21,459 nucleotides of DNA from a virus. Shown piece by piece: positions 1-12,474 of the stretch (position 1 is its first letter; each line of letters opens with the position of its first letter). The stretch covers positions 1-21,459 of the IMG/VR virus record IMGVR_UViG_3300032157_000048. The stretch is one strand, 5' to 3'. The translations under genes were made by a program, and so were the position numbers. A model generated the notes under the pieces. That model made no database searches. It saw nothing but the letters and a program-made list of their open reading frames with translations, and was not told the origin of the DNA.

Positions 1-90
1 GGTGCCCCACGACCAGATGCCGTAGACCAGGTCGCGCCATTTGCGGCGCAGCGGCGGGGTGGGGACCGTGGGGATCGGTGATTCAGGCAT
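1..90 (-). CDS. Putative holin-like small membrane protein, N-terminal fragment
   Basis: Thirty codons are visible, running off the left edge of the window. The ATG overlaps the stop of the preceding HExxH gene by 8 bases and is preceded by an AGGAAGGA Shine-Dalgarno about 5 bases away. Third codon positions are almost all G or C. The peptide is Pro-rich at first (MPESPIPTVPTPP), then has a basic patch (LRRKWRDLVYGIW) and enters an aromatic, apparently hydrophobic segment. A short Pro-rich or basic head before a membrane helix is common in actinophage holins, and the gene sits right after the cell-wall hydrolases, which fits. The membrane helices themselves lie outside the window, so holin is an inference from context. 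Confidence 0.6.
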   Translation of the reverse strand, partial: MPESPIPTVPTPPLRRKWRDLVYGIWSWGT

Positions 91-469
91 CAGAGTCCTT
101 CCTGCAGTGTTCCCAGATCCAGCGGGTGAGCCAGCCCACGAAGTACGCGGTCGGTTCGTCGGTGCCGGTCGGGGTGTGACCGATGTGGTTGAACAGTTCG
201 GAGGCTGCGTGGCTGGCCTCGTGCGCGCAGGAGTCGATCAGTTCGCCTTCGCCGTGGTGTTTCGCGACGTCGACCCAGAGGATCAGGTGCGGGACCGAGA
301 GGCCGCTGTTCGGCTCCCAGACCGCGAACTGGGCTTGCCCGGCACTGGTGGGCAGGTCCTCAACGAAGTCGAACCTGCGGCGCAGCCACGCCCACTGGCG
401 GGCATTCGTGGCGCAATACACCTCCGCCCCGTACACATCGACCGTGTGATGCGCGGGACGAGCGGTCAT
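83..469 (-). CDS. Small HExxH-motif putative zinc metallopeptidase-like phage protein
   Basis: 128 residues; the ATG overlaps the stop of the PL7 gene in an ATGA arrangement, so translation is probably coupled. The central part carries H83-E84-A-S-H87, the HExxH zinc-binding signature, in a helix (CAHEASHAA). An acidic segment about 18 residues later (DEPTAYFVGWLTRWIWE) could give the third ligand. Phage proteins with this layout (HExxH, then an acidic/aromatic helix ending in W/Y-rich residues) are widespread and mostly uncharacterised. No signal peptide or membrane segment is seen, so any activity would be cytoplasmic or released at lysis. Peptidase activity is not shown by the sequence; the motif could serve a structural metal site. 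The gene is real by codon bias, spacing and overlap. Confidence 0.8.
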   Translation of the reverse strand: MTARPAHHTVDVYGAEVYCATNARQWAWLRRRFDFVEDLPTSAGQAQFAVWEPNSGLSVPHLILWVDVAKHHGEGELIDSCAHEASHAASELFNHIGHTPTGTDEPTAYFVGWLTRWIWEHCRKDSDA

Positions 470-1353
470 GCTGCGTGCAGCACGTCGAGGTCCTCGATCC
501 GCACACCCCCGCCGGCGCCAGGCTTGTCACCCTTGGACAGGTTCGAGTTCACGTACACACCGGCCTTGAAATACGCGACCTCATCCTCGATGACGCGGTC
601 GACGTCGAGCCCGGCACCGTTCGCCTCGAGGTGGATCCCGTCCGGCGTCGCTTCGATCAGCCAGTCGAACGGCTCACCGAAGCGGACCACCGCCAGCCGG
701 CGCCGGATACTGCTACCGGGGCCGAGCGACTCGGAGAGGTACATCTGGATCAGCTGGTCGTCGATCGCGCGGGCCAAGAGCATCACGACGTCGTCGACGT
801 TGTCGTGGATCTGGCCGATCACGATCTCCGGTTTCACCACAGGTGTCTCGAGGATCGCGAACCGGCCAGTGAGTCGGTGGACGCCTTCAGCGCTCGACCA
901 GGCGGCCTTGGCGGTGCCGTCCATCTCGCGGAACTCGTCGCGGCAGTAGTTGGAGCCCGGCGTTGTCGCGCCGTCGATGGGTGCGCGCAGTTCGATCGAG
1001 CCGTCCGGGTTGCGGCGCAGCCACTCGCCGGAGTAGGTGGCCAGCTCGGGGTTCAGGATTTCCCGTGCGCGGCCGCCGGCGTCTTCAGCGGTGGTCAGTT
1101 TCCAGGGGCGCAGGTCGATCGAGAACCGTGGTGGAGGGTCCGCGAGGAGTCTGGCCAACGTTCGCGGGCCGACCAGGCCGTCGGCGCCGGTGCCTTTCCA
1201 TCCTTGGGCCAGCTGCCATGCCTGGACGCGGTCCCTGAGGTTGTGCATCAACCGGGTGGGAGGGAACCCGTGCGCGGTGAGGCGCGCATCGAGGACCGCG
1301 AACTGTGGCCCGTGCTGCTGCATCCCGAAGTCCTCGGGGCGGTAGGTCGTCAC
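466..1353 (-). CDS. Peptidoglycan-binding domain fused to PL7 (alginate-lyase family) polysaccharide lyase
   Basis: 295 residues, GTG start overlapping the M23 gene stop (GTGA). Residues about 20-72 form a peptidoglycan-binding_1-type domain (VQAWQLAQGWKG followed by DGLVGPRTLARLL). Residues about 80-295 match polysaccharide lyase family 7 by its three signature blocks: R138-D-E-F-R142 (the family R-x-E-L/F-R motif), Q181-I-H183 (QIH), and Y261-F-K-A-G-V-Y267 (YFKAGxY). In the family, Arg, Gln, His and the last Tyr form the active site that cleaves 1,4-linked uronic-acid polymers by beta-elimination; all four are present. No signal peptide is visible, so export would depend on a holin. It lies between the M23 lysin and a holin-like gene, which suggests a lysis-time or virion depolymerase against a uronate-containing envelope polymer. 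The substrate is unknown; alginate itself is not implied. Confidence 0.87.
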   Translation of the reverse strand: MTTYRPEDFGMQQHGPQFAVLDARLTAHGFPPTRLMHNLRDRVQAWQLAQGWKGTGADGLVGPRTLARLLADPPPRFSIDLRPWKLTTAEDAGGRAREILNPELATYSGEWLRRNPDGSIELRAPIDGATTPGSNYCRDEFREMDGTAKAAWSSAEGVHRLTGRFAILETPVVKPEIVIGQIHDNVDDVVMLLARAIDDQLIQMYLSESLGPGSSIRRRLAVVRFGEPFDWLIEATPDGIHLEANGAGLDVDRVIEDEVAYFKAGVYVNSNLSKGDKPGAGGGVRIEDLDVLHAA

Positions 1354-2489
1354 GGGATCACGATCCGGGCCTCGATGCGGCGGTGGTCCGACAGCTCCAG
1401 TGACGTGTTGTCCACCTGGCCGCCGGTGATCCGTGCCTGCGACGGAATGGTGAGGATGGTGCTGTAGTCCTTGCCCTTGGAGGGGAACTCGGCTAGCGAC
1501 TCGTTGGCGATCGCCGCCTGCTCCTTGAGGTCACGGAAGCCAAGAGCCCGCAGGGGTGCCATCAGCATCTGGTTGAAGTCACCGGGCAGAACCACCGGGC
1601 CGTCGACGCTCCGCACGAGGTCGGCGAGCCAGCGGCTGTATCGCGCCTTGCCGGCGTCGCCTGCCTCCTGCTTGATGGGAGCGTGCGCAGCGACGATCGC
1701 GACATGCTGGCCCGTCTGCTCGCGCTTGAGGTGCGTCACGAACGCGCCGCGGTTGGCAACACTGGACCGGTAGCCGGCCGACCAGCGGTCGATGTCCCAG
1801 CGTCCGTCTTCGGCGTAGAAGATCTCCATGCCGGCGGGGCCGCCTGCGACGGCTTGGCGGTTCGCGCGGCGGAAGTCCGGCCCGAGTGCTGTCGAGATCG
1901 TGGCGACCTGCTCGGCCGTGAACACCTCGGTGAAGACATGGATGGACGCCTCAGTGCCGACCTCGGAGCCGCGCAGCTCGCGGATGATCCCCGCCGATCG
2001 AGGTGCCCATGCACGCCCGAACCACGGCGCGTAGGCCTGAGCCCAGAACGACAGATCGAACACCGTCGCATTTCGGCTCATGGCAGGCGCAGCGGCGTCG
2101 ATGAAGCGTGGGGGCCGATCCGACTGGTAGGCCGCTGGTCCCTGCACGAACTCGGCGTAGTGCAGATGCGCGCCGGTGACGTTGCCGGTCGCGCCGGACA
2201 GGCCGAGGCGTTGTCCTGCTTCGACCTGCTGACCGGCGGTGACGTGCTCGGCCGACAGGTGCCCGTACAGGTGCCAGATGTTGCCTGTGCGGATCACGAC
2301 GTGGATGCCGAACGCGGGGCCGTAGCCGCCCCACCCTGCATGGACGACGGTGCCGCCGGTGGTCGCGACGACAGGCGTGCCGGGATCGCAGCCGTAGTCG
2401 ACGCCTCGATGGATGTACGCCGGGTTGAACCGGGCACGCTGGCGGTAGCCGAGAGTGACAGGCCAGCGGGTTGCGACAGGACGGACCAT
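1350..2489 (-). CDS. M23 peptidase fused to endonuclease/exonuclease/phosphatase-fold domain (putative endolysin)
   Basis: 379 residues. The ATG at 2489 was chosen because GAGGAG lies 8 bases upstream; a longer frame to 2552 has no such site. Residues about 20-135 are an M23/LytM metallopeptidase: H27-x3-D31 (HRGVDYG), H73-LYG-H77, and H108-L-H110, the zinc and catalytic set of Gly-Gly or stem-peptide endopeptidases. Residues about 138-379 have the endonuclease/exonuclease/phosphatase (EEP) layout: a first strand ATVFDLSFW, Glu188 in FTEVF, His269 in VAAHAP, G303-D-F-N306, and S367-D-H369 near the C-terminus. The Asn usual in the first strand is Asp here. EEP proteins cleave phosphodiesters in nucleic acids or lipids. 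The fusion is unusual for a lysin; a role on DNA or on phosphodiester-linked wall polymers is inference. Confidence 0.85.
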   Translation of the reverse strand: MVRPVATRWPVTLGYRQRARFNPAYIHRGVDYGCDPGTPVVATTGGTVVHAGWGGYGPAFGIHVVIRTGNIWHLYGHLSAEHVTAGQQVEAGQRLGLSGATGNVTGAHLHYAEFVQGPAAYQSDRPPRFIDAAAPAMSRNATVFDLSFWAQAYAPWFGRAWAPRSAGIIRELRGSEVGTEASIHVFTEVFTAEQVATISTALGPDFRRANRQAVAGGPAGMEIFYAEDGRWDIDRWSAGYRSSVANRGAFVTHLKREQTGQHVAIVAAHAPIKQEAGDAGKARYSRWLADLVRSVDGPVVLPGDFNQMLMAPLRALGFRDLKEQAAIANESLAEFPSKGKDYSTILTIPSQARITGGQVDNTSLELSDHRRIEARIVIP

Positions 2490-2659
2490 GGCGCTGTCTC
2501 CTCGAGTGAGTGTTGAAGTCGGACCCGGCCGCCGCATCCCCGGAAGGCACACGGCCTTGACCCCGCGACGGCCGGGCTTCGAGGACCGCGGATCTCACGA
2601 CGCGCGTCCCCGTGATGCCGCGCTCTGCTCGCCGGAGTGGTGGCGGCGGCGCGGACGTT

Positions 2660-4385: not shown

Positions 4386-5228
4386 TCACCCGCACGGGTT
4401 GTTCGGAGTCGGGCCCGGGGCCGGCGTCGACCCGCCAGTCGACGGGGCGGACTGCCACGGCCAGTACGCGGACGGCAGCGCCACGTTGTAGAACGCAGCA
4501 CCGGCACCTTCGGACGTGATCCAGAACGACAGGCCGTCGCGGGCCATCGTGATGCCCTCAGGCTTCACCTGTGACGGCACGCTGACGGTGTCAACGAGGG
4601 CCCAGCTCGTGGCGTCGTGGACGAACACGATCGTGTTGTGGCCCTCGCGGCGGAACAGCACGAACCGGCCATCGAGGGTGAACGTGCCATCTGACACGTC
4701 CGACGGCATCGCCTGCGGCTGCCGCACGCACTTGTTCTTCACCCCCGACTGCAGAGCAGCCGGCAGCAGGTACAGGCGCCCGTTCCCGCCGGCCTTCTTG
4801 GTCACGATGTAGCGGGCCTGAGTCACCGGGTGGATCAGGAAGCACTCGGCGTTCTTCGCCCCGTCGTCCTTGCCCTTGGCGTTGACGTACTTGATCGGGT
4901 ACTTGGTGCGAGCGAGCGCGCCTTGGCCGGTGCCGAGTCCGGGTTCGGGACGCATGAAGATCGCGCAGTTGTCCCGGTTCCCGTCGTTGTCGCCGATGTC
5001 GGCGTACCAGAGGCGACCTTGGTTGTCGACGCAGATCGCTTCGGGGTCGGTGATGCTGCCACCGTTCGCCCAGGAGAAGTCGATGACGGTGTCGCCGGTG
5101 ACGGTGGAGACACCGAACACGTGTGGGGTCGTGTTCTCGTCGTTGCACGTGTAGAGCACGTTCGCGTGGACGACGGACATCGCGGCCGATGAGGCTTCGT
5201 CGATCCGGCCATCAGTGAACGCGACCAT
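4386..5228 (-). CDS. Beta-propeller-like tail-tip protein, putative receptor-binding or fibre component
   Basis: 280 residues starting 5 bases after the fibre-like gene. Repeated strands of the propeller type are seen: SITDPEAICVDNQGRLWYADIGDND, later GTFTLDGRFVLFRREG, and KPEGITMARDGLSFWITSE, each with the D-x-G-x-L/F-W/Y pattern of propeller blades. The DIGDND..NR segment is typical of a host-type family of secreted bacterial beta-propellers. The C-terminus is a Pro/Ser/Gly-rich tail (STGGSTPAPGPTPNNPCG). There is no signal peptide, as expected for a virion protein. Lying last in the tail-tip block, it is probably a receptor- or glycan-binding accessory. It differs in sequence from the NHL propeller further upstream, so the two seem independently acquired. 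Confidence 0.7.
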   Translation of the reverse strand: MVAFTDGRIDEASSAAMSVVHANVLYTCNDENTTPHVFGVSTVTGDTVIDFSWANGGSITDPEAICVDNQGRLWYADIGDNDGNRDNCAIFMRPEPGLGTGQGALARTKYPIKYVNAKGKDDGAKNAECFLIHPVTQARYIVTKKAGGNGRLYLLPAALQSGVKNKCVRQPQAMPSDVSDGTFTLDGRFVLFRREGHNTIVFVHDATSWALVDTVSVPSQVKPEGITMARDGLSFWITSEGAGAAFYNVALPSAYWPWQSAPSTGGSTPAPGPTPNNPCG

Positions 5229-5233
5229 CGCGG

Positions 5234-5761
5234 TCAGCCGATCTTCCGGATGTACAGCCGGGAGATCGTCGAGGAGGAGTGGTCGGTCGCCCCGGCGCCT
5301 GCTAGGTACAGGTCGAGTTCGACGGTGTCGTTCGCGGCGAGAGGCTCCCCTTCTGTGTAAGGGGTTCCCGCCCAGAGACCGTTGCCGCCGCCCGAACTGG
5401 CAGCAAGGACGACAGAGCCGCCAGCGGTGTACAGGCCGTTCTTGGAGATCACGACATCGACCCGGTTGGAAATTGCGACCTTACTGCGCGCGGAGATGTT
5501 GTACTTGCCGGCCTGCAGGACGGTGATGACGCTGCCGGACACCGAGAAAAAGTCGGTGTCGTTGTGAACGGTCGTGGCGAGGTTCACCTTGGTCGCCGTG
5601 TTCGCGAGTATCCCGGTCGTCGCGGCGGATGCGACGAGTTCGCAATATGGCTGATACAGGACGGCCTCGACAGCTTCGGCGAGGGCCTTCATGTCGCGGG
5701 GCACATTGTCCGAATCGCTCAGCGTGGGGTACGGCAGAAGCAGTTTCGTTGTCGTAGCCAC
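5234..5761 (-). CDS. Minor tail protein, fibre-like with C1q/TNF-like beta domain
   Basis: 175 residues; GTG start with AGGAG 5 bases upstream. The N-terminus (LLLPYPTLSDSDNVPRDMKALAEAVE) is the typical start of many actinophage minor tail and fibre proteins, where a Pro-rich strand and short helix dock on the tail tip. The remainder (residues about 40-175) is beta-rich, with FFSVSGSVITVLQAGKYNIS and later NDTVELDLYLAG, and it ends SSSTISRLYIRKIG. This resembles the trimeric C1q/TNF-like jelly-roll heads of phage receptor-binding proteins. It lies directly after the small tip protein, which fits a baseplate-attached fibre or adsorption protein. Confidence 0.75.
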   Translation of the reverse strand: MATTTKLLLPYPTLSDSDNVPRDMKALAEAVEAVLYQPYCELVASAATTGILANTATKVNLATTVHNDTDFFSVSGSVITVLQAGKYNISARSKVAISNRVDVVISKNGLYTAGGSVVLAASSGGGNGLWAGTPYTEGEPLAANDTVELDLYLAGAGATDHSSSTISRLYIRKIG

Positions 5762-5769
5762 GGGCGCTC

Positions 5770-6027
5770 CTAGACGGTCTTCAAGCAGATGGGTGGACAG
5801 AGATTGGTGACCAGCGCGACACCGCGATCACCGACCGAGTAGCTGGCGCCGGACAGCTGCAGCGCGGCCACTGGTTCACTGCCGCCGGCGAGGTAGACGG
5901 TGAAGTCCGGGGCTGTGGTCGCGACCTTGAACATGCGGTACTGCGACGCCTTGATGTCGATTTGCCGCAACAGTTCGTCACGCAGGTCTGCGAGCAACTT
6001 GGCGAGGAGCCCGCCCGGTTCGCTCAT
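5770..6027 (-). CDS. Small tail-tip protein
   Basis: 85 residues, ATG overlapping the hub gene's stop (ATGA). A helical N-terminus (LLAKLLADLRDELLRQIDIK) is followed by short beta strands ending LSGASYSVGDRGVALVTNLCPPICLKTV. The second half resembles the short OB-like strands of small proteins that commonly follow DUF5047-type minor tail genes in actinophages. Likely a structural subunit of the tail tip; the function is not established. Two Cys residues lie close together near the C-terminus (CPPIC). Confidence 0.7.
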   Translation of the reverse strand: MSEPGGLLAKLLADLRDELLRQIDIKASQYRMFKVATTAPDFTVYLAGGSEPVAALQLSGASYSVGDRGVALVTNLCPPICLKTV

Positions 6028-7154
6028 ACCGTCATCAGCTCCGTCTCGTACAGGGCGGTGTCGTTTCCCCGTGCCGGTGACGTGCCGGACTCGAGGTCGA
6101 TCGACATCGCCGTCAGCAGGTACGTCTTATCCAGCCCCGGGTCGGTGCTGGTCCGTGTGGCCGTGATGTCGACCGGGTCTCCGACCTCGAGGAGTGGGTT
6201 CGCGACGACGGTGACGTCGGCGGTCTCTTGGCCCTTCAACAGGCGCTGCAGTTTGGCTTCACCAGCGAGCTGTGCTTCGGCGGCCGTGTTGATGGTCTTG
6301 ACCTTCAACTCGAATGGGCGCAGCCCGATCTTGTCCTCGTGCGCGGGATGGTTCGGGTCCGCAAGCCGGACGGTGACGTAGTCCCAGGTGGCGAGCGGGT
6401 TGTCGGGGATGACTGCGACGGCGTTGTAGATCCGGCCGAAGTCTTTCGCGCGGATGCCGCTACCACCGACGATGGTCCCGGACGGCCCTGTCGACAGTTC
6501 AGCGACCGGGATAGTGCTGGCGTCGATCTCGGGCATCTTGCGGATGATGAGCCGGCCGGCGCCGTCGAAGTACACGTCGAGGCGGCCCTCGGCGGCCAGA
6601 TCGGTGATCGTCTGGGTGCGGGTGGCGTTGATGACGACGCCTTCGAGGCAGATGCTGCCGCCGTGGTCGAGGATCACAACCTCAACGCCAGGGATGACAG
6701 CGGTGACGATCCCGGCGATGAACGTCGCTCTGGTCACCAACGTGACGGGCAGCGGTTGGGTGAAGGGGACACCTTCGAGCCATGCCCACGGATCGATGAG
6801 ACTCAACTCGACCTCGGACTCGACAATGCGCGTGGATCCCTGGGCGGCATACCCGTGGAACACGGGAACCATTTCGACGTCGTCGGCGGAGACGCGTTGC
6901 CCGATGCCAATGTCGAACGTCGCTCCGGGACGTTGCAGGAGGGTCCACAGTTCGCGGGCCTGGACGTCGAAGGACACGACTCGCAGGCCGTTGACGTTCG
7001 AGCGGGGACCCTGCCCGGCGGTCGAGTCGATCATGGCGCCGGAGACCAACTGCAGCGCGAGCTCGCCCTCGTCGGGAATGGTGGCGGTGACATCCTGGGT
7101 GAACGTCGGATTGGCCTTCAGCTGGTCCTTGAAGGCTTGGGATGCAGCACGCAT
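6024..7154 (-). CDS. Minor tail protein, DUF5047-like tail hub
   Basis: 376 residues. The N-terminus MRAASQAFKDQLKANPTF and the beta-rich body (VFHGYAAQGSTRIVESEVELSLIDP, then a domain with GRLDVYFDGAGRLIIRKMP, then QRLLKGQETADVTVVANPLLEVGDPV) follow the DUF5047 minor-tail pattern of actinophages. These are thought to form the tail hub below the distal tail ring, analogous to the N-terminal part of phage lambda gpJ or Tal proteins. No peptidase or lysozyme domain is attached. It follows the NHL-containing tail protein with 5 bases between, in the expected order tape measure, distal tail, hub. Confidence 0.8.
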   Translation of the reverse strand: MRAASQAFKDQLKANPTFTQDVTATIPDEGELALQLVSGAMIDSTAGQGPRSNVNGLRVVSFDVQARELWTLLQRPGATFDIGIGQRVSADDVEMVPVFHGYAAQGSTRIVESEVELSLIDPWAWLEGVPFTQPLPVTLVTRATFIAGIVTAVIPGVEVVILDHGGSICLEGVVINATRTQTITDLAAEGRLDVYFDGAGRLIIRKMPEIDASTIPVAELSTGPSGTIVGGSGIRAKDFGRIYNAVAVIPDNPLATWDYVTVRLADPNHPAHEDKIGLRPFELKVKTINTAAEAQLAGEAKLQRLLKGQETADVTVVANPLLEVGDPVDITATRTSTDPGLDKTYLLTAMSIDLESGTSPARGNDTALYETELMTV

Positions 7155-7159
7155 CGGGG

Positions 7160-9319
7160 CTATCCGGTCAGACGTTGGAGGTAGGTGCGGCCGCTGTTGA
7201 CGGCGTCGCCGTACGTGCCGCCCGCGATGACGTCGTCGGCGTAAGTGCGACCGAAACTGGCCTCGATCACCGGTGTCCGTACCGGTGTCAGCAGAAGAGT
7301 TATGGTCGATTCCTGCCCTCGGTCGAGGGTGGGCAGGTCGCGGCGTTCGATGGTGACGTCACCGACGGAGAACCAGCCTTCCGGCAAGTCCAGGTCCCAT
7401 GAGCTTGGGGACCGCAACAGCACAGGATCGTTCGACTTCAATGGCGCGAGGACAAGGTCGCGGGCGTCGAAGTCGGCAGTGAAGAGTTGAAGCGTCCGGT
7501 CGGGGATTCGCCGCGGCCCAGACGTGACGACCACTGGCAGGTCGGAGCCTTCGATCTCCAGAACGTTGCGGCCGCTCGCCGGCGATGTCAGCGACTGGGA
7601 AGTCTGCTCGGTGATGTAGACGTCGCCTTCGACACCGTCGGGTCCGGTGTCGATCTTGACCGACAGATTCGGTGTGGTCGGGTGGATGAGCCAGGCAGCG
7701 GCGCCCACGAGGGTTTCTGTGTCGGAGCCGAACACCGGGGTTGGCGAGGGCGGCGTGAGCGTGACGGTGACGTCGTCGACGACTGCCGCCTGCTGGCTCG
7801 CCCCGAACTTCCGGATCGTGAACGCCGAGACGTCGGTGACATAGACGGCGCCGGCGCTGTCGGTTGTGACGGCGTACGGGTTGGCGAAGCGGGTGCCGCC
7901 CGAGACGGTGCCGTCGAACGAGTAGAGGAACGTGCCGGTGTTGGAGAACTTCTGGATCCGGTCGTTGAAGTTGGTGTCGGCGACGTAGATCTTGTCGGAA
8001 GCGTCGGCGCGAATCCCGACGGGGAATCTGAACTGGCCTTCGCCGATGCCCTTGGTGCCCCACTTCGTTTGCCAGACACCGGAGGAGTTGAACTTCTGGA
8101 CTCGATGCCCGCCGCTCAGGTCGTCCGCACCGTACTCGGCGACGTACACGTTGTTCGACGAGTCGCTGGTGATTCCGGTCGGGTATCGGAATGCGCCGTC
8201 GGCGGTACCGAATGACCCGAACTTGAGTTGGAACACGCCTGCGCTGTTGAACTTCTGGACGCGGTGCCCGTTGAACTCGGTGACCCAAATGAAGCCGGCC
8301 GAGTCGACGCAGATACCGAGCGGCAGATTGAACTGCCCATCGCCTGAGCCAGCGGTCCCGAACTTCGACGAGTAGACGTAGGTGCCGCCCGAGGGTACGA
8401 ACTTCTGGACTCGGTTGTTGCCGCCGTCCGTGATCCACATGTTGTCGGAAGCGTCGAAGGCGATATTGCGGGGCGCGTTGAATTGGCCGTTGCCCGTGCC
8501 ATAGCTGCCAAACGACAACTGGTAGACGCCGGCCGAGTTGAACTTGTGGATTCGGTGGCCGTAGAAGTCGACTGCCCAGATGTCGCCGGCCGAGTCGATC
8601 GCGACGTCAAAGGCGGCAAAGTTCAGGTCCGTAGTGAAGGGCAGCCCGGTATCCCAAGCCGAAGGGAATGACAGCGACTGGGCGGGGTCGCCCAGCGCGG
8701 CCACGAGTTGCACCTTCGTCGGGACACCTGAGTACGTCGTCGAGATCGCCGTGTACGACGCTCCGGCCAACGTGACAGTGCCGCCGGAGAACATCATCGA
8801 GAAGGCACCCGAACCTGCGGCGACCACCGGAGACCCGGAGCCTGTGAGGACGACTTGGTTGCCCACGACCGAAGCAGTTGCAATCACAACGTCGGAGGCG
8901 TCAAGGATCCGCACGGTCGTCCAGTCGACGTCGAGGGAATCCAAGGAACCGATCGTGCCGGCGGCCGTGCGGGTGATGGTGGCGCCGTCGGTCGACGACG
9001 TTGCGGTACCTGGCGATGCAGACCAGCCTGCGACCGTCGCCGTCCACGACGACAGGTTCGACCACGTCTCGATGAAGCCTGGCGTGACCGTGAGGACCTC
9101 GGCGTCGACGGTGTAGACGCACGCCTGGTCGTAAGGGGCGTCGTAGTCGTAGACCACCGACACGCTCGACCCAAGCGGAGCGACCGCGCGGATCGGGACC
9201 CCGTCACGGCGGACGACGATCGACGTGAAGGTCGACATCAGGTCTTCGGTATCGAGGTCCAGGCGCATCCGCGGCGGTTCCTCGAGCGGGGCCGGTTCAG
9301 CGGTGACGGTGAACAGCAT
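7160..9319 (-). CDS. Distal-tail-type minor tail protein with inserted six-blade NHL propeller
   Basis: 719 residues, ATG overlapping the tape-measure stop by one base (TGATG). Residues 1-80 (RDGVPIRAVAPLGSSVSVVY, YDQACVYTV) and about 525-719 (AAWLIHPTTPNLSV, DVTIERRDLPTLDRGQEST, SFGRTYADDVIAGGTYGDAV) are the two halves of a common actinophage minor tail protein that usually lies directly after the tape measure. Between them sit a Ser/Thr/Ala-rich beta region (about 85-225) and six NHL-type repeats (about 236-504). These have recurrent D-S-A-G-x-I/V-W/Y-V, R-V/I-Q-K-F-N-S-x-G-V and G-x-F-x-x-P elements. Six repeats would close a six-blade propeller, a fold used for binding proteins or glycans. 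It is probably displayed at the tail tip as an adsorption module; the ligand is unknown. Confidence 0.85.
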   Translation of the reverse strand: MLFTVTAEPAPLEEPPRMRLDLDTEDLMSTFTSIVVRRDGVPIRAVAPLGSSVSVVYDYDAPYDQACVYTVDAEVLTVTPGFIETWSNLSSWTATVAGWSASPGTATSSTDGATITRTAAGTIGSLDSLDVDWTTVRILDASDVVIATASVVGNQVVLTGSGSPVVAAGSGAFSMMFSGGTVTLAGASYTAISTTYSGVPTKVQLVAALGDPAQSLSFPSAWDTGLPFTTDLNFAAFDVAIDSAGDIWAVDFYGHRIHKFNSAGVYQLSFGSYGTGNGQFNAPRNIAFDASDNMWITDGGNNRVQKFVPSGGTYVYSSKFGTAGSGDGQFNLPLGICVDSAGFIWVTEFNGHRVQKFNSAGVFQLKFGSFGTADGAFRYPTGITSDSSNNVYVAEYGADDLSGGHRVQKFNSSGVWQTKWGTKGIGEGQFRFPVGIRADASDKIYVADTNFNDRIQKFSNTGTFLYSFDGTVSGGTRFANPYAVTTDSAGAVYVTDVSAFTIRKFGASQQAAVVDDVTVTLTPPSPTPVFGSDTETLVGAAAWLIHPTTPNLSVKIDTGPDGVEGDVYITEQTSQSLTSPASGRNVLEIEGSDLPVVVTSGPRRIPDRTLQLFTADFDARDLVLAPLKSNDPVLLRSPSSWDLDLPEGWFSVGDVTIERRDLPTLDRGQESTITLLLTPVRTPVIEASFGRTYADDVIAGGTYGDAVNSGRTYLQRLTG
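7800..8640 (-). repeat. DNA-level imperfect tandem repeats encoding NHL blades
   Basis: The block aacttctgga (plus strand, encoding the start of the QKF motif) recurs at 7947, 8091, 8250 and 8400, with a one-base variant at 8541. The spacings are 144, 159, 150 and 141 bases, all multiples of three. Neighbouring words such as gttgaacttctgga and cgatgcccg/cggtgcccg also recur. The retained nucleotide identity points to duplication of blades by recombination, and the unequal lengths show in-frame insertions within blades. Confidence 0.85.
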
Positions 9320-12300
9320 CAGCGGATCGCCCCCACCACAGTCGACGCCACACCATTCGTGATCCGCAGCTCGATCTGACCGATGCCCTGCTGCCAGTCA
9401 TCGATCCGGAAGTTCGCTACCTGCACACTCGGGGACGCGCTAGCCAGGAACTCACCGGTAGCGGTCCGCAACGACTCGATCTGGTTGTACGTGTTCTGCA
9501 GATCCATCACATCCGACGCAGGCCCCGACAACAGCGCGTTCGCAGCCCGGGTCCCGGTATCGATACCCATCGCGGCGATCTCCTGCAAAAGCATCCCGCC
9601 GAGGCCACGCTTCTTCAGCTCGCCGAGCTTGCCCAGGAAGCCCTGCGCCTTCGCCAACCTGGTCCGAGCCCAACCAGCCACGTTCATCGACCCGGGCGTC
9701 GACCAGGGGTTCGCGGGTTCGCTGAACCGCGACGCAAGATCGAACGTCCCCAACCCCGATGTGAGGGTCTCGATGTAGTCGTGCATCGGGCCCTCTTGCC
9801 CAGCATTGAGGCGAGCGAGTTTCTCCTTGGCCTGCTGCAGCTTCAGCGCGATGATCCGAATCTCACGCTTCGACTTCTTCTCACCCGGCACCCCGGTCGA
9901 CGACGCTGGCGGGTTCTTCGCCTCCTTCAGCTCCTTGCGGAGACGGCGGACATCTTCCTTCGCCTCGAGGCGCTCGAGCTCGATCTCGCTGGCCGTGGGA
10001 GCGATCGCTCCGCCTCGAGCGAACCGCGGCAGGCTCCCCGCCAGCGCGGCATTCCGCAGTCGCCGCATCGCTCCGTGGCCGCCGGCTGCACGGACCTCAC
10101 GCGCGGTCCACATGTGCTCATCACGGGACGCCATGATGTGCACCGAGTCGGACGTCGTAGTCCCGGGACCAAAAATGGGGCCACCCCGGGCGCGGCCACC
10201 GCCAGCCTTGCCGCCACCCTCTGTGGAGTTGTCACCCATCCGTCCGCCGGTAGCGGTGGTGGTCCCAGCGTTCATCAACGACCGGAGCTTCGAGGCGAGC
10301 GAATCAACCTTCGCCTCAGCTGCCGCGGTGTCCACGTCTGCGGTTGCCTGCGCCTCGGTGCCATCGAAGTCGGCCAGCAGGCCTGTCAGGTCAACGACGC
10401 CGTCCTCGGACTCCTCAAGCCCAAGAACCGATACGAGTGTCGCGACCTGCTCCGGCGTCAAGTTGTACTGCTGCTGAAGCGCCTGAACCTCCGCGAGAGT
10501 CTGGGGCGCTCCTTGGGCCAGAATCCGTGTCACGACTTGCTCCGGCACGCCAGCCAACGCCTGCTGCAACGTCTGGGTCGCCTGGTTGACCTGTAGGACC
10601 TTCTGGCGCTGCCGTTCGTATTCAGCGTTGACCGCTTGGATCGACGACAGGATCTTGCCGGCCACGCCTACGGCCACGGGGTTGCCCGAGACAAGAGCTT
10701 GATCGATCGCCGCCGTGACACGCTTCAGTGCGTCGGCCTCGCCCAACGAAGCCGAGACGAGGTCCTGCGTCGGGATTCCGATCGCGGTCGCGTCACCGAG
10801 GACGCCGTCCTTCTGTAGCTTCATCGCCGCGACACGGCGGGTGAATTCGCTGATCTGAGCGTCAACGCCCTGCAGCGTCGAAGCGAAGTCGAGGACATCC
10901 TTCTGCGCGGTCTTCGCACCTTCGCCGCTGTCGATGAACGAAGCACCGAGGCCAGCGAGGCCGCCGATGGCACCGCCGATCAAGGTGCCAGGGCCTGGGA
11001 AGAACGAACCGATACCGGCACCGATCGCGGCACCGCCGAGAGTCCCGGCCAGCGCGTCCACGGTTTGGCTCGTGTCATCTGCTGCGACAGAGAACGCCGT
11101 CAGGCCCGCGCCGGCCGCTATCAGCCCGCCACGCCGGAACAGTGCGCCGCGGGACACGGCGGCTTCCGCGACACCCAACGAGATCAGTGCGGCGCGCAGC
11201 GCAGTGACGCCGGTAACAGCCCGTGTGAAGACGAAACCACTCAGCCCGACCACCGCGGTCATGGCGACGGTCGCGCCGGTGATGTCCTTGATCGGTTCGG
11301 GCAGTTCGCCAAACGCGTTCGCGATGTCGGTGACCGCGCCGAGTCCGGTGTTGATCATCGGGAGCGCGGTGGCTCCCAGGTCGATCAGGTTGTCCTTGAT
11401 GTTGTTCCACGCGATCTGCGTCTGCGCGGCCGTGGTCTGCTGACGCTTCTCGTACTCCTTTTGCAGCGCGGTGTTTCGCTCCCACGCGCCCGCCTGCAGG
11501 TTCAGCGAGTCCGACAACAGGTCGCCAGCGCCAGCCAGCTTCAGGATCGATCGGGTGACACGGATGTCCTCAAGCCCCAGGTCGGAGAGGACGTCGTGAA
11601 CGTTCCCGCCTTCGGCTTTCACCCGCGCGAGCCCGGTGACGAATGTGTTGAGCGCGCGCGCTGGCGACTGCTCGAACGAGCGAGCGAACTCTTGGACCGT
11701 CATCCCCGACGTTTCGGCCCACACCGCGAGGTCCGCGCCGTTGCTCTGGATGGCCTTGTCCATGTCCATCAGGACCCGCGAGACCGCCGTGCCGCCAGCC
11801 TCAGCTTCTTCGCCGACCGACGACAACGCGTTGGCGATCGCCAACACTTCGCCCTCGGAAGCACCGACCAGCTTGCCGGCACCGGCGATGCCTTGAGCCA
11901 TCTGCACGATGTCGCGTTCGGTCGACGCACCGTTGTTGCCGAGAGCGACCAGCGTGGCACCCAGGTTGTCGACCTCGCCGGCACCAGTGCCCATGACGTT
12001 CGTGATGCGGGCGATCGACGTCGCAGCCTCGTCGGCGGTCAGGTTCGTCGTCTCGCCGAGCTTGATCATCGTGTTCGAGAACGACGCGATGTTCTCGCGC
12101 TTCACCCCGAGCTGGCCGGCTGCTTCGGCGACCGCCGCGATCTCCTGATGCGTCGCCGGCATAGTGCGCGCCATGCCCCGCAGCTGGTCTTCCAGCTTCG
12201 CCATCTGCTTCGCGCTGCCACTGGTCGTTTTAGTGACACCAGCCCACGCGGTTTCCCAGTCGACCGCGGCCTTCACCGCTGCACCAACCCCGATGGCGGC

Positions 12301-12474
12301 CGCAGTCCCGATCTTTCCGTACGCGTTCCCGATCTCGTTGAGGGCCTGACGCTTCGACGCCGACCGTTCGAGCTCTCGCGTGAATCCCTTCACCGACGCG
12401 ACCGATCCGGCGATCTTCGACTTGAACCGCGAGTCATCAAGATCGAGCTGGACGGCGACCCGGCGAACGCTCAC
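9319..12474 (-). CDS. Tape measure protein (TP901-type)
   Basis: 1051 residues, GTG start with AGGAG 5 bases upstream. The N-terminal third is the phage tail tape measure TP901-type domain (AAVDWETAWAGVTKTT, MARTMPATHQEIAAVAEAAGQLG, TAVSRVLMDMDKA). Two hydrophobic regions follow: about residues 395-440, and a Gly-rich segment about 475-515 (LGGAAIGAGIGSFFPGPG). A Gly-rich stretch, GRARGGPIFGPGT, precedes a SDSVHIMASRDEHMWTAREV segment, a conserved feature of actinophage tape measures. A coiled coil follows (LERLEAKEDVRRLRKELKEA). Tape-measure length usually sets tail length at about 0.15 nm per residue, so a tail of about 150 nm is expected. It is immediately followed by tail-tip genes. Confidence 0.93.
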   Translation of the reverse strand: MSVRRVAVQLDLDDSRFKSKIAGSVASVKGFTRELERSASKRQALNEIGNAYGKIGTAAAIGVGAAVKAAVDWETAWAGVTKTTSGSAKQMAKLEDQLRGMARTMPATHQEIAAVAEAAGQLGVKRENIASFSNTMIKLGETTNLTADEAATSIARITNVMGTGAGEVDNLGATLVALGNNGASTERDIVQMAQGIAGAGKLVGASEGEVLAIANALSSVGEEAEAGGTAVSRVLMDMDKAIQSNGADLAVWAETSGMTVQEFARSFEQSPARALNTFVTGLARVKAEGGNVHDVLSDLGLEDIRVTRSILKLAGAGDLLSDSLNLQAGAWERNTALQKEYEKRQQTTAAQTQIAWNNIKDNLIDLGATALPMINTGLGAVTDIANAFGELPEPIKDITGATVAMTAVVGLSGFVFTRAVTGVTALRAALISLGVAEAAVSRGALFRRGGLIAAGAGLTAFSVAADDTSQTVDALAGTLGGAAIGAGIGSFFPGPGTLIGGAIGGLAGLGASFIDSGEGAKTAQKDVLDFASTLQGVDAQISEFTRRVAAMKLQKDGVLGDATAIGIPTQDLVSASLGEADALKRVTAAIDQALVSGNPVAVGVAGKILSSIQAVNAEYERQRQKVLQVNQATQTLQQALAGVPEQVVTRILAQGAPQTLAEVQALQQQYNLTPEQVATLVSVLGLEESEDGVVDLTGLLADFDGTEAQATADVDTAAAEAKVDSLASKLRSLMNAGTTTATGGRMGDNSTEGGGKAGGGRARGGPIFGPGTTTSDSVHIMASRDEHMWTAREVRAAGGHGAMRRLRNAALAGSLPRFARGGAIAPTASEIELERLEAKEDVRRLRKELKEAKNPPASSTGVPGEKKSKREIRIIALKLQQAKEKLARLNAGQEGPMHDYIETLTSGLGTFDLASRFSEPANPWSTPGSMNVAGWARTRLAKAQGFLGKLGELKKRGLGGMLLQEIAAMGIDTGTRAANALLSGPASDVMDLQNTYNQIESLRTATGEFLASASPSVQVANFRIDDWQQGIGQIELRITNGVASTVVGAIR

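Follow-up and report, generated by a model that had tools for sequence, protein, structure and literature searches.

The window analysed here, 21,459 bases long, is an entire IMG/VR record. It covers a block of head and tail genes from a tailed phage, with the main genes on the minus strand, and it encodes an actinophage minor tail protein (P0001) that is interrupted by about 450 residues carrying a predicted six-bladed NHL propeller. We propose that this insert probably serves as an accessory adsorption module, facing outward at the distal end of the tail and binding a component of the host surface. The architecture, its borders, the propeller prediction, the family assignment, the gene position and the exchange of modules among relatives were computed here. 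P0001 is thus a known kind of protein with a new decoration, and not a new system.

Gene order and the two conserved halves

The reading frame of the tail protein opens with an ATG and extends over 719 codons with 0 internal stops (Table 1). It is preceded by genes for a portal, a Mu-F-like protein, a protease, a cement protein, the capsid protein, a tail tube protein (PF25595) and the tape measure protein (TMP). A phrog_1887 protein follows, and farther downstream lie genes for a small protein resembling a fibre, for a propeller-like protein and, at the end, for an M23 peptidase and a lyase of the PL7 type. The same phrog_1887 family comes next after this tail protein in a second IMG/VR contig (L036) and in the phages AGM15 and Crosby; in AGM15, SF3, VWB and Constance, as in the window, the tail protein gene lies directly after that of the TMP. 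Over 365 residues, the TMP of the window is 54% identical to its counterpart in Microcystis phage MinS1, where the gene that follows has a different sequence. As for the last two genes, the PL7-type alginate lyase domain (PF08787, E 1e-28) belongs to the product of 466-1353 (-), which stands at the expected endolysin place, matches an endolysin PHROG and has a weakly peptidoglycan-binding-like N-terminus (PG_binding_1, E 0.11). The M23 peptidase (1350-2552 (-), E 6e-23) continues into about 240 residues that by eye resemble an endonuclease/exonuclease/phosphatase domain and for which a Pfam scan gave no match.

A preliminary description of this DNA had recognized in P0001 the two halves of a common actinophage minor tail protein, separated by about 440 residues. 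We built a family HMM from ten relatives, leaving out P0001 and the L036 protein, and used 500 shuffled P0001 sequences as a control. The model matched P0001 with a full-sequence E of 7.1e-11, against 0.14 for the best of the shuffles, and the match consists of two colinear pieces, residues 29-81 (hmm 24-82) and 542-715 (hmm 100-258), in agreement with the earlier claim. The N-terminal piece is weak by itself (i-E 0.012), and its backing comes from colinearity and from the N piece of the L036 protein (3.8e-7; C piece 6.9e-25). PHROGs, which are independent of the HMM, place the N part in phrog_11649 (E 0.0024) and the C part in phrog_16363 (E 7e-4), in agreement with it. The two halves are thus real and not a product of chance. 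Streptomyces SF3 gp17 matches both of these PHROGs, and a profile comparison of the C-terminal part of P0001 with the phrog_11649-type family gave E 4.6e-6. By these profile matches, P0001 is confirmed as an actinophage minor tail protein of the phrog_11649/phrog_16363 kind that has both conserved domains in order, as do AGM15 gp17, SF3 gp17, VWB gp48 and Constance gp19.

Short members of the family were reached through relatives of the neighboring genes; among the cultured phages that we examined, the protein is between 269 and 860 aa long. The short homologues (269-296 aa) occupy the same gene position after the TMP and are without the region that separates the two pieces in P0001, so this region is not an integral part of every member. 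Insert-free examples are Brevibacterium AGM15 gp17 (286 aa), Streptomyces SF3 gp17 (296 aa), Arthrobacter Constance gp19 (275 aa), which matches the family HMM, and the proteins of the Propionibacterium phages B22, E6, G4 and PFR1 (269-271 aa). A PHROGs scan assigned the AGM15, SF3, B22 and PFR1 proteins to phrog_11649; those of E6 and G4 were assigned to it as near-identical to B22, which was scanned directly. One further member (L054) matches 81 phage records, 71 from Arthrobacter and 10 from Streptomyces, most of them annotated as minor tail protein. The cultured members examined have either no insert or CBM-like modules and, unlike P0001, none carries an NHL propeller. Close relatives of P0001 were not found by tblastn of phage records, viral contigs and genome contigs. 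The profile phrog_16363 is listed under 'unknown function'; its last 250 positions correspond to the phrog_11649-type tail protein, and its longer N-terminus fits the decorated members. Two candidates were rejected: LuckyBarnes gp24, whose gene follows immediately on that of a TMP akin to the one in the window, appears from its sequence to belong to another family, and the match to L062 was spurious, its frame resembling malic enzyme.

Since P0001 comes from a single metagenomic contig with no close relative found, the fusion could be an artefact of assembly or of a frame running across two genes. A separate contig, however, encodes the same architecture from end to end. This is L036 (IMG/VR contig 3300017700_000558; L036/L048), whose 730-aa protein aligns with P0001 over its whole length (34% identity, E 4e-93) and lies after a TMP gene and before a phrog_1887 gene. 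It shares architecture and neighbor order with P0001 and differs in its TMP, which is of other families, and in its G+C content (0.56 versus 0.66). In addition, the frame of P0001 is free of stops, and the propeller has a GC3 of 0.865, in line with its flanks (0.78-0.88) and the neighboring genes. The architecture of L036 refutes the artefact reading for practical purposes, and we regard it as exceedingly improbable. A recent import of the propeller was also considered and is not supported, since no GC or GC3 anomaly was found.

Fold, borders and site of the insert

Within the insert, Pfam recognizes NHL repeats (PF01436, E 5.1e-34) in five stretches above threshold. By eye and from predicted strands, six repeats of about 47 aa each extend over residues 214-507, and they share 23-51% identity among themselves. 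AlphaFold2, run with eight input sequences, predicted most of residues 233-510 with a pLDDT of 85-97, dipping to about 60 near residues 471-480 and to 75 at the last residues. The 23 predicted strands form six blades, of which five are four-stranded and the last has three strands. Residues 214-219 ('QSLSF') align with the strand that lies outermost in the other blades and are probably the missing strand that closes blade 6; this closure is read from the sequence because the model lacks confidence ahead of residue 233. A Foldseek search with the predicted propeller found the NHL domain of Thin (6xg7, E 4.3e-28), and VIA-align superposed the two at 2.0 A over 267 residues (Z 41.4). The insert is thus predicted to carry a six-bladed NHL propeller, and the six repeats and the beta-rich segment noted in the preliminary description were both recovered.

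The nearest solved relatives of this propeller include the RNA-bound NHL domains of TRIM71/Lin41 and Brat, and the possibility that it binds nucleic acid must therefore be weighed. The fold by itself is uninformative on the ligand, however, residues 213-508 have no net positive charge (22 K+R versus 25 D+E), and P0001 is a tail protein. We consider nucleic acid binding very unlikely.

Alignment with insert-free homologues, which had been suggested as the way to fix the borders, places the insert at about residues 82-531, between hmm 82 and 100. It has a beta-rich part of about 130 aa in addition to the six repeats. In the insert-free protein SF1/L018, the N-terminal domain has a predicted FN3 fold (Z 9.3 over 87 residues), and its strands 97-106 and 115-121 correspond to F and G. 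On this model, the inserts of P0001 and L036 both lie in the F-G loop of an FN3-like domain. A protein from an actinobacterial genome (L057) is broken at the same loop, where it has another insert, about 200 aa long. When short members were aligned together with NHL-bearing rows, they were wrongly placed within the propeller, and such mixed alignments were not used for folding.

The beta-rich segment was modelled with a pLDDT of 26-44 and its fold is not established; a Pfam search with the segment, also when joined to the strand that follows the propeller, gave no match. It is perhaps a LamG/ConA-like jelly roll, and the strand 'VVDDVTV' behind the propeller is proposed from its sequence as the last strand of this domain. 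The arrangement might then have two levels, in which a LamG-like jelly roll occupies the F-G loop of the FN3-like domain and is itself interrupted by the NHL propeller ahead of its final strand ('VDDVTV'), and the whole might travel as one stacked adsorption module between otherwise unrelated actinophages, an idea that we regard as possible but somewhat doubtful. A scan of 394 actinobacterial genomes for the beta-rich segment without NHL repeats gave two matches (L068 and L069), whose frames look unrelated.

Table 1. Coordinates of the tail protein gene, its neighbors and its domains in the window
Feature	Positions	Residues	Strand	Basis or remarks
Tape measure protein (TMP)	9319..12474		-	Directly upstream of P0001; PF10145 E 3e-16, phrog_13339 E 2e-129
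Minor tail protein with predicted NHL propeller (P0001), whole gene	7160..9319	1-719	-	ATG start, residue 1 at 9319
N-terminal FN3-like domain, strands to F ('YDYDAPYDQACVYTVDAE')	9080..9319	1-80	-	HMM piece 29-81; predicted fold of SF1/L018
Beta-rich segment ('ETWSNLSSWT...TKVQLVAA')	8684..9079	81-212	-	Kept in L036, 30% identity
Predicted six-bladed NHL propeller	7796..8683	213-508	-	Pfam, AlphaFold2, Foldseek, VIA-align, repeats by sequence
'VVDDVTV' strand and linker, proposed	7727..7795	509-531	-	Alignment with L036 'SVDDITV'
Presumed G strand of the FN3-like domain ('SDTETLVGAA')	7697..7726	532-541	-	Alignment with L036 'SDSVTLTPDD' and insert-free relatives
Conserved C-terminal domain, phrog_11649/phrog_16363 (end 'GRTYADDVIAGGTYGDAVNSGRTYLQRL')	7163..7696	542-719	-	HMM, PHROGs
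Next tail gene, phrog_1887 family	6024..7154		-	After P0001

Modules on the scaffold and their exchange

NHL propellers had been described as unusual in distal tail proteins. NHL repeats are indeed rare in tail proteins, but the propeller in P0001 is not unique. An NHL codon pattern run against 2.9 million viral contigs matched 18 stretches, one of them in L036. Besides L036, NHL-repeat proteins were found in IMG/VR as L030, L047, L045, L033, L038 and L042, of which L042 matches a minor tail family and L033 and L038 match virion structural families. The tail fibre NRS2_61/NRS3_61 of the Nitratiruptor phages NrS-2 and NrS-3 has six NHL repeats, three of which are absent in a sister phage (PMC9723563). 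These proteins resemble P0001 in placing NHL repeats in a phage tail protein and differ from it in being annotated as tail fibre and in the phylum of the host.

Other modules are found on the same scaffold. CBM_4_9 is present in L058 (1e-4) and, more weakly, in L029 (0.015) and Rowa (0.012). L011 contains CBM96 (E 1e-18); its match to the family HMM (E 0.076) is below significance, with C-termini of L011 and L012 that are similar by eye, and its CBM96 is therefore weaker support than the other modules. In actinobacterial genomes, the frames L063:3-1232 and L058:1465-3477 (-) join the C-terminal tail domain to a polysaccharide deacetylase (PF01522, E 1e-5 in L063; by eye in L058), so that the scaffold may carry enzymes too. 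Inserts enter the FN3-like domain near hmm 24 (L023, L025 and L029), near hmm 50 (Wollypog gp18) and in the F-G loop (P0001, L036 and L057), and with these three places the domain is thus a general acceptor of inserts.

The clearest comparison is between L023:3224-4723, from an IMG/VR contig, and L025:1191-2726, from Brevibacterium sp. ZH18, whose backbones are 87% identical while their inserts of about 200 aa share 26%; L022 and L024 have no insert and are 86-93% identical to these two. Near-identical backbones with such dissimilar inserts show that modules have been exchanged within the family. The preliminary description had called the propeller an exchangeable module, and this holds at the level of the family. 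The strongest case concerns CBM-like inserts at another loop than the NHL module, and P0001 and L036 are too distant from each other to separate exchange of the NHL module from inheritance.

The propeller might itself be an enzyme of the SGL or Vgb lactonase/lyase kind that cleaves or modifies a polymer of the host surface. Its profile also fits an enzyme family (Pfam SGL, E 3e-7, above the cut-off), and Vgb_lyase is matched at E 7.6e-7, although its 28.7 bits fall short of the curated cut-off of 50 bits. Structural matches of the propeller include the lactonase 7ris and the lyase PAL 3fvz, the deacetylase of L063 sits on the same scaffold, and an alginate lyase of the PL7 type is encoded in the window. 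However, binding propellers (Thin, TRIM2/3/71) match best both in structure and by profile, and we rate an enzymatic role as quite unlikely.

Place at the tail tip and proposed role

The gene position of P0001 fits that of a distal tail protein, with the TMP upstream and the phrog_1887 tail protein, a candidate hub, downstream. Structural comparison was made with an insert-free relative, for which the model is poor (mean pLDDT 56, about 30-63 in the C-terminal domain). Its Foldseek matches are weak and mixed, with the tube or baseplate proteins 9g8s_S, 8kee, 9ki1_u and 6rbk (E 0.02-0.1) among many FN3 domains, and a comparison of the family profile with the PDB found no relative. A Dit-type fold is absent from the fold-match lists of this poorly modelled relative, which is not counter-evidence. 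The ring below the tail tube, on which the preliminary description had placed the propeller, is a hypothetical arrangement.

The gene thus encodes the conserved tail protein that comes directly after the TMP and consists of the FN3-like and the C-terminal domain, and the F-G loop of the former bears a module of about 450 residues composed of a beta-rich domain and the predicted six-bladed propeller. Since a propeller pairs its first and last strands, its ends adjoin, and it could loop out without disturbing the host domain. The C-terminal domain and the remainder of the FN3-like domain most likely act as an anchor in the tail tip, with the inserted unit exposed. The propeller would then face outward and bind to the surface of the host. 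Its ligand is probably a glycan or some glycosylated polymer, and glycans of the surface or polymers of the wall are the likeliest targets because those sibling inserts that can be named are sugar-binding or sugar-modifying. The location in the particle, the outward display, the class of ligand and the role in adsorption are what we infer here. The adsorption module would be accessory, beside a separate main receptor-binding protein, for which the product of 5234-5761 (-) is a candidate. This protein of 175 aa has a weak tail-fibre match (phrog_16053, E 0.007) and resembles a small trimeric receptor-binding head. The second propeller-like protein of the tail block (4386-5228 (-)) weakly matches Phytase-like, SSL_N and Reg_prop profiles, with E values from 7e-4 to 0.03, and tblastn against phage records gave 0 matches for it.

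Alternatively, the propeller could be a docking platform within the particle that binds a virion protein, such as one of the two just described, and not the host. NHL propellers frequently bind proteins, and two more candidate tail-tip proteins are encoded just downstream in the window. The inserted loop of the Mysterious DTP is also known to touch accessory baseplate proteins (PMC13252515). However, the recognizable sibling inserts on the scaffold are carbohydrate-binding or carbohydrate-modifying, and inserts are swapped or missing on a backbone that is retained, something that an interface required for assembly would hardly permit. We therefore think docking unlikely and favor adsorption to the host surface.

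An accessory adsorption module of this kind would have counterparts in other phages. In the 'evolved' Dit of lactococcal, streptococcal and Lactobacillus phages, CBMs inserted in loops of the distal tail protein bind host cells (PMC7291167). The insert of P0001 likewise sits in a loop of its scaffold and is absent from the short homologues; it differs in being a predicted NHL propeller, with no CBM found in P0001 by Pfam scan, and in its FN3-like scaffold, which belongs to another family. The receptor-binding protein of phi11 has a propeller whose cavity was modelled for GlcNAc of wall teichoic acid (PMC4901313). Like the propeller of P0001 in its presumed place, it stands at the tail tip of a siphophage of Gram-positive bacteria, with sugar binding proposed, whereas it has five blades, its stem is trimeric and helical, and it is a separate receptor-binding protein rather than an insert. 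Among actinophages, the distal tail protein gp58 of Corndog has a Rossmann-like insert between its two lobes (PMC13252515); P0001 is comparable in its extra domain and differs in the kind of domain.

Collectively, our analysis extends the set of modules found on the phage protein that comes after the TMP by the NHL propeller. It also ties phrog_16363 to a tail-tip scaffold that takes inserts at several loops of its FN3-like domain. To our knowledge, the receptors of actinophages are mostly unknown, and the sequence rule that emerges here, by which insertions between the two conserved halves are candidate adsorption modules, may be applied to actinophages.
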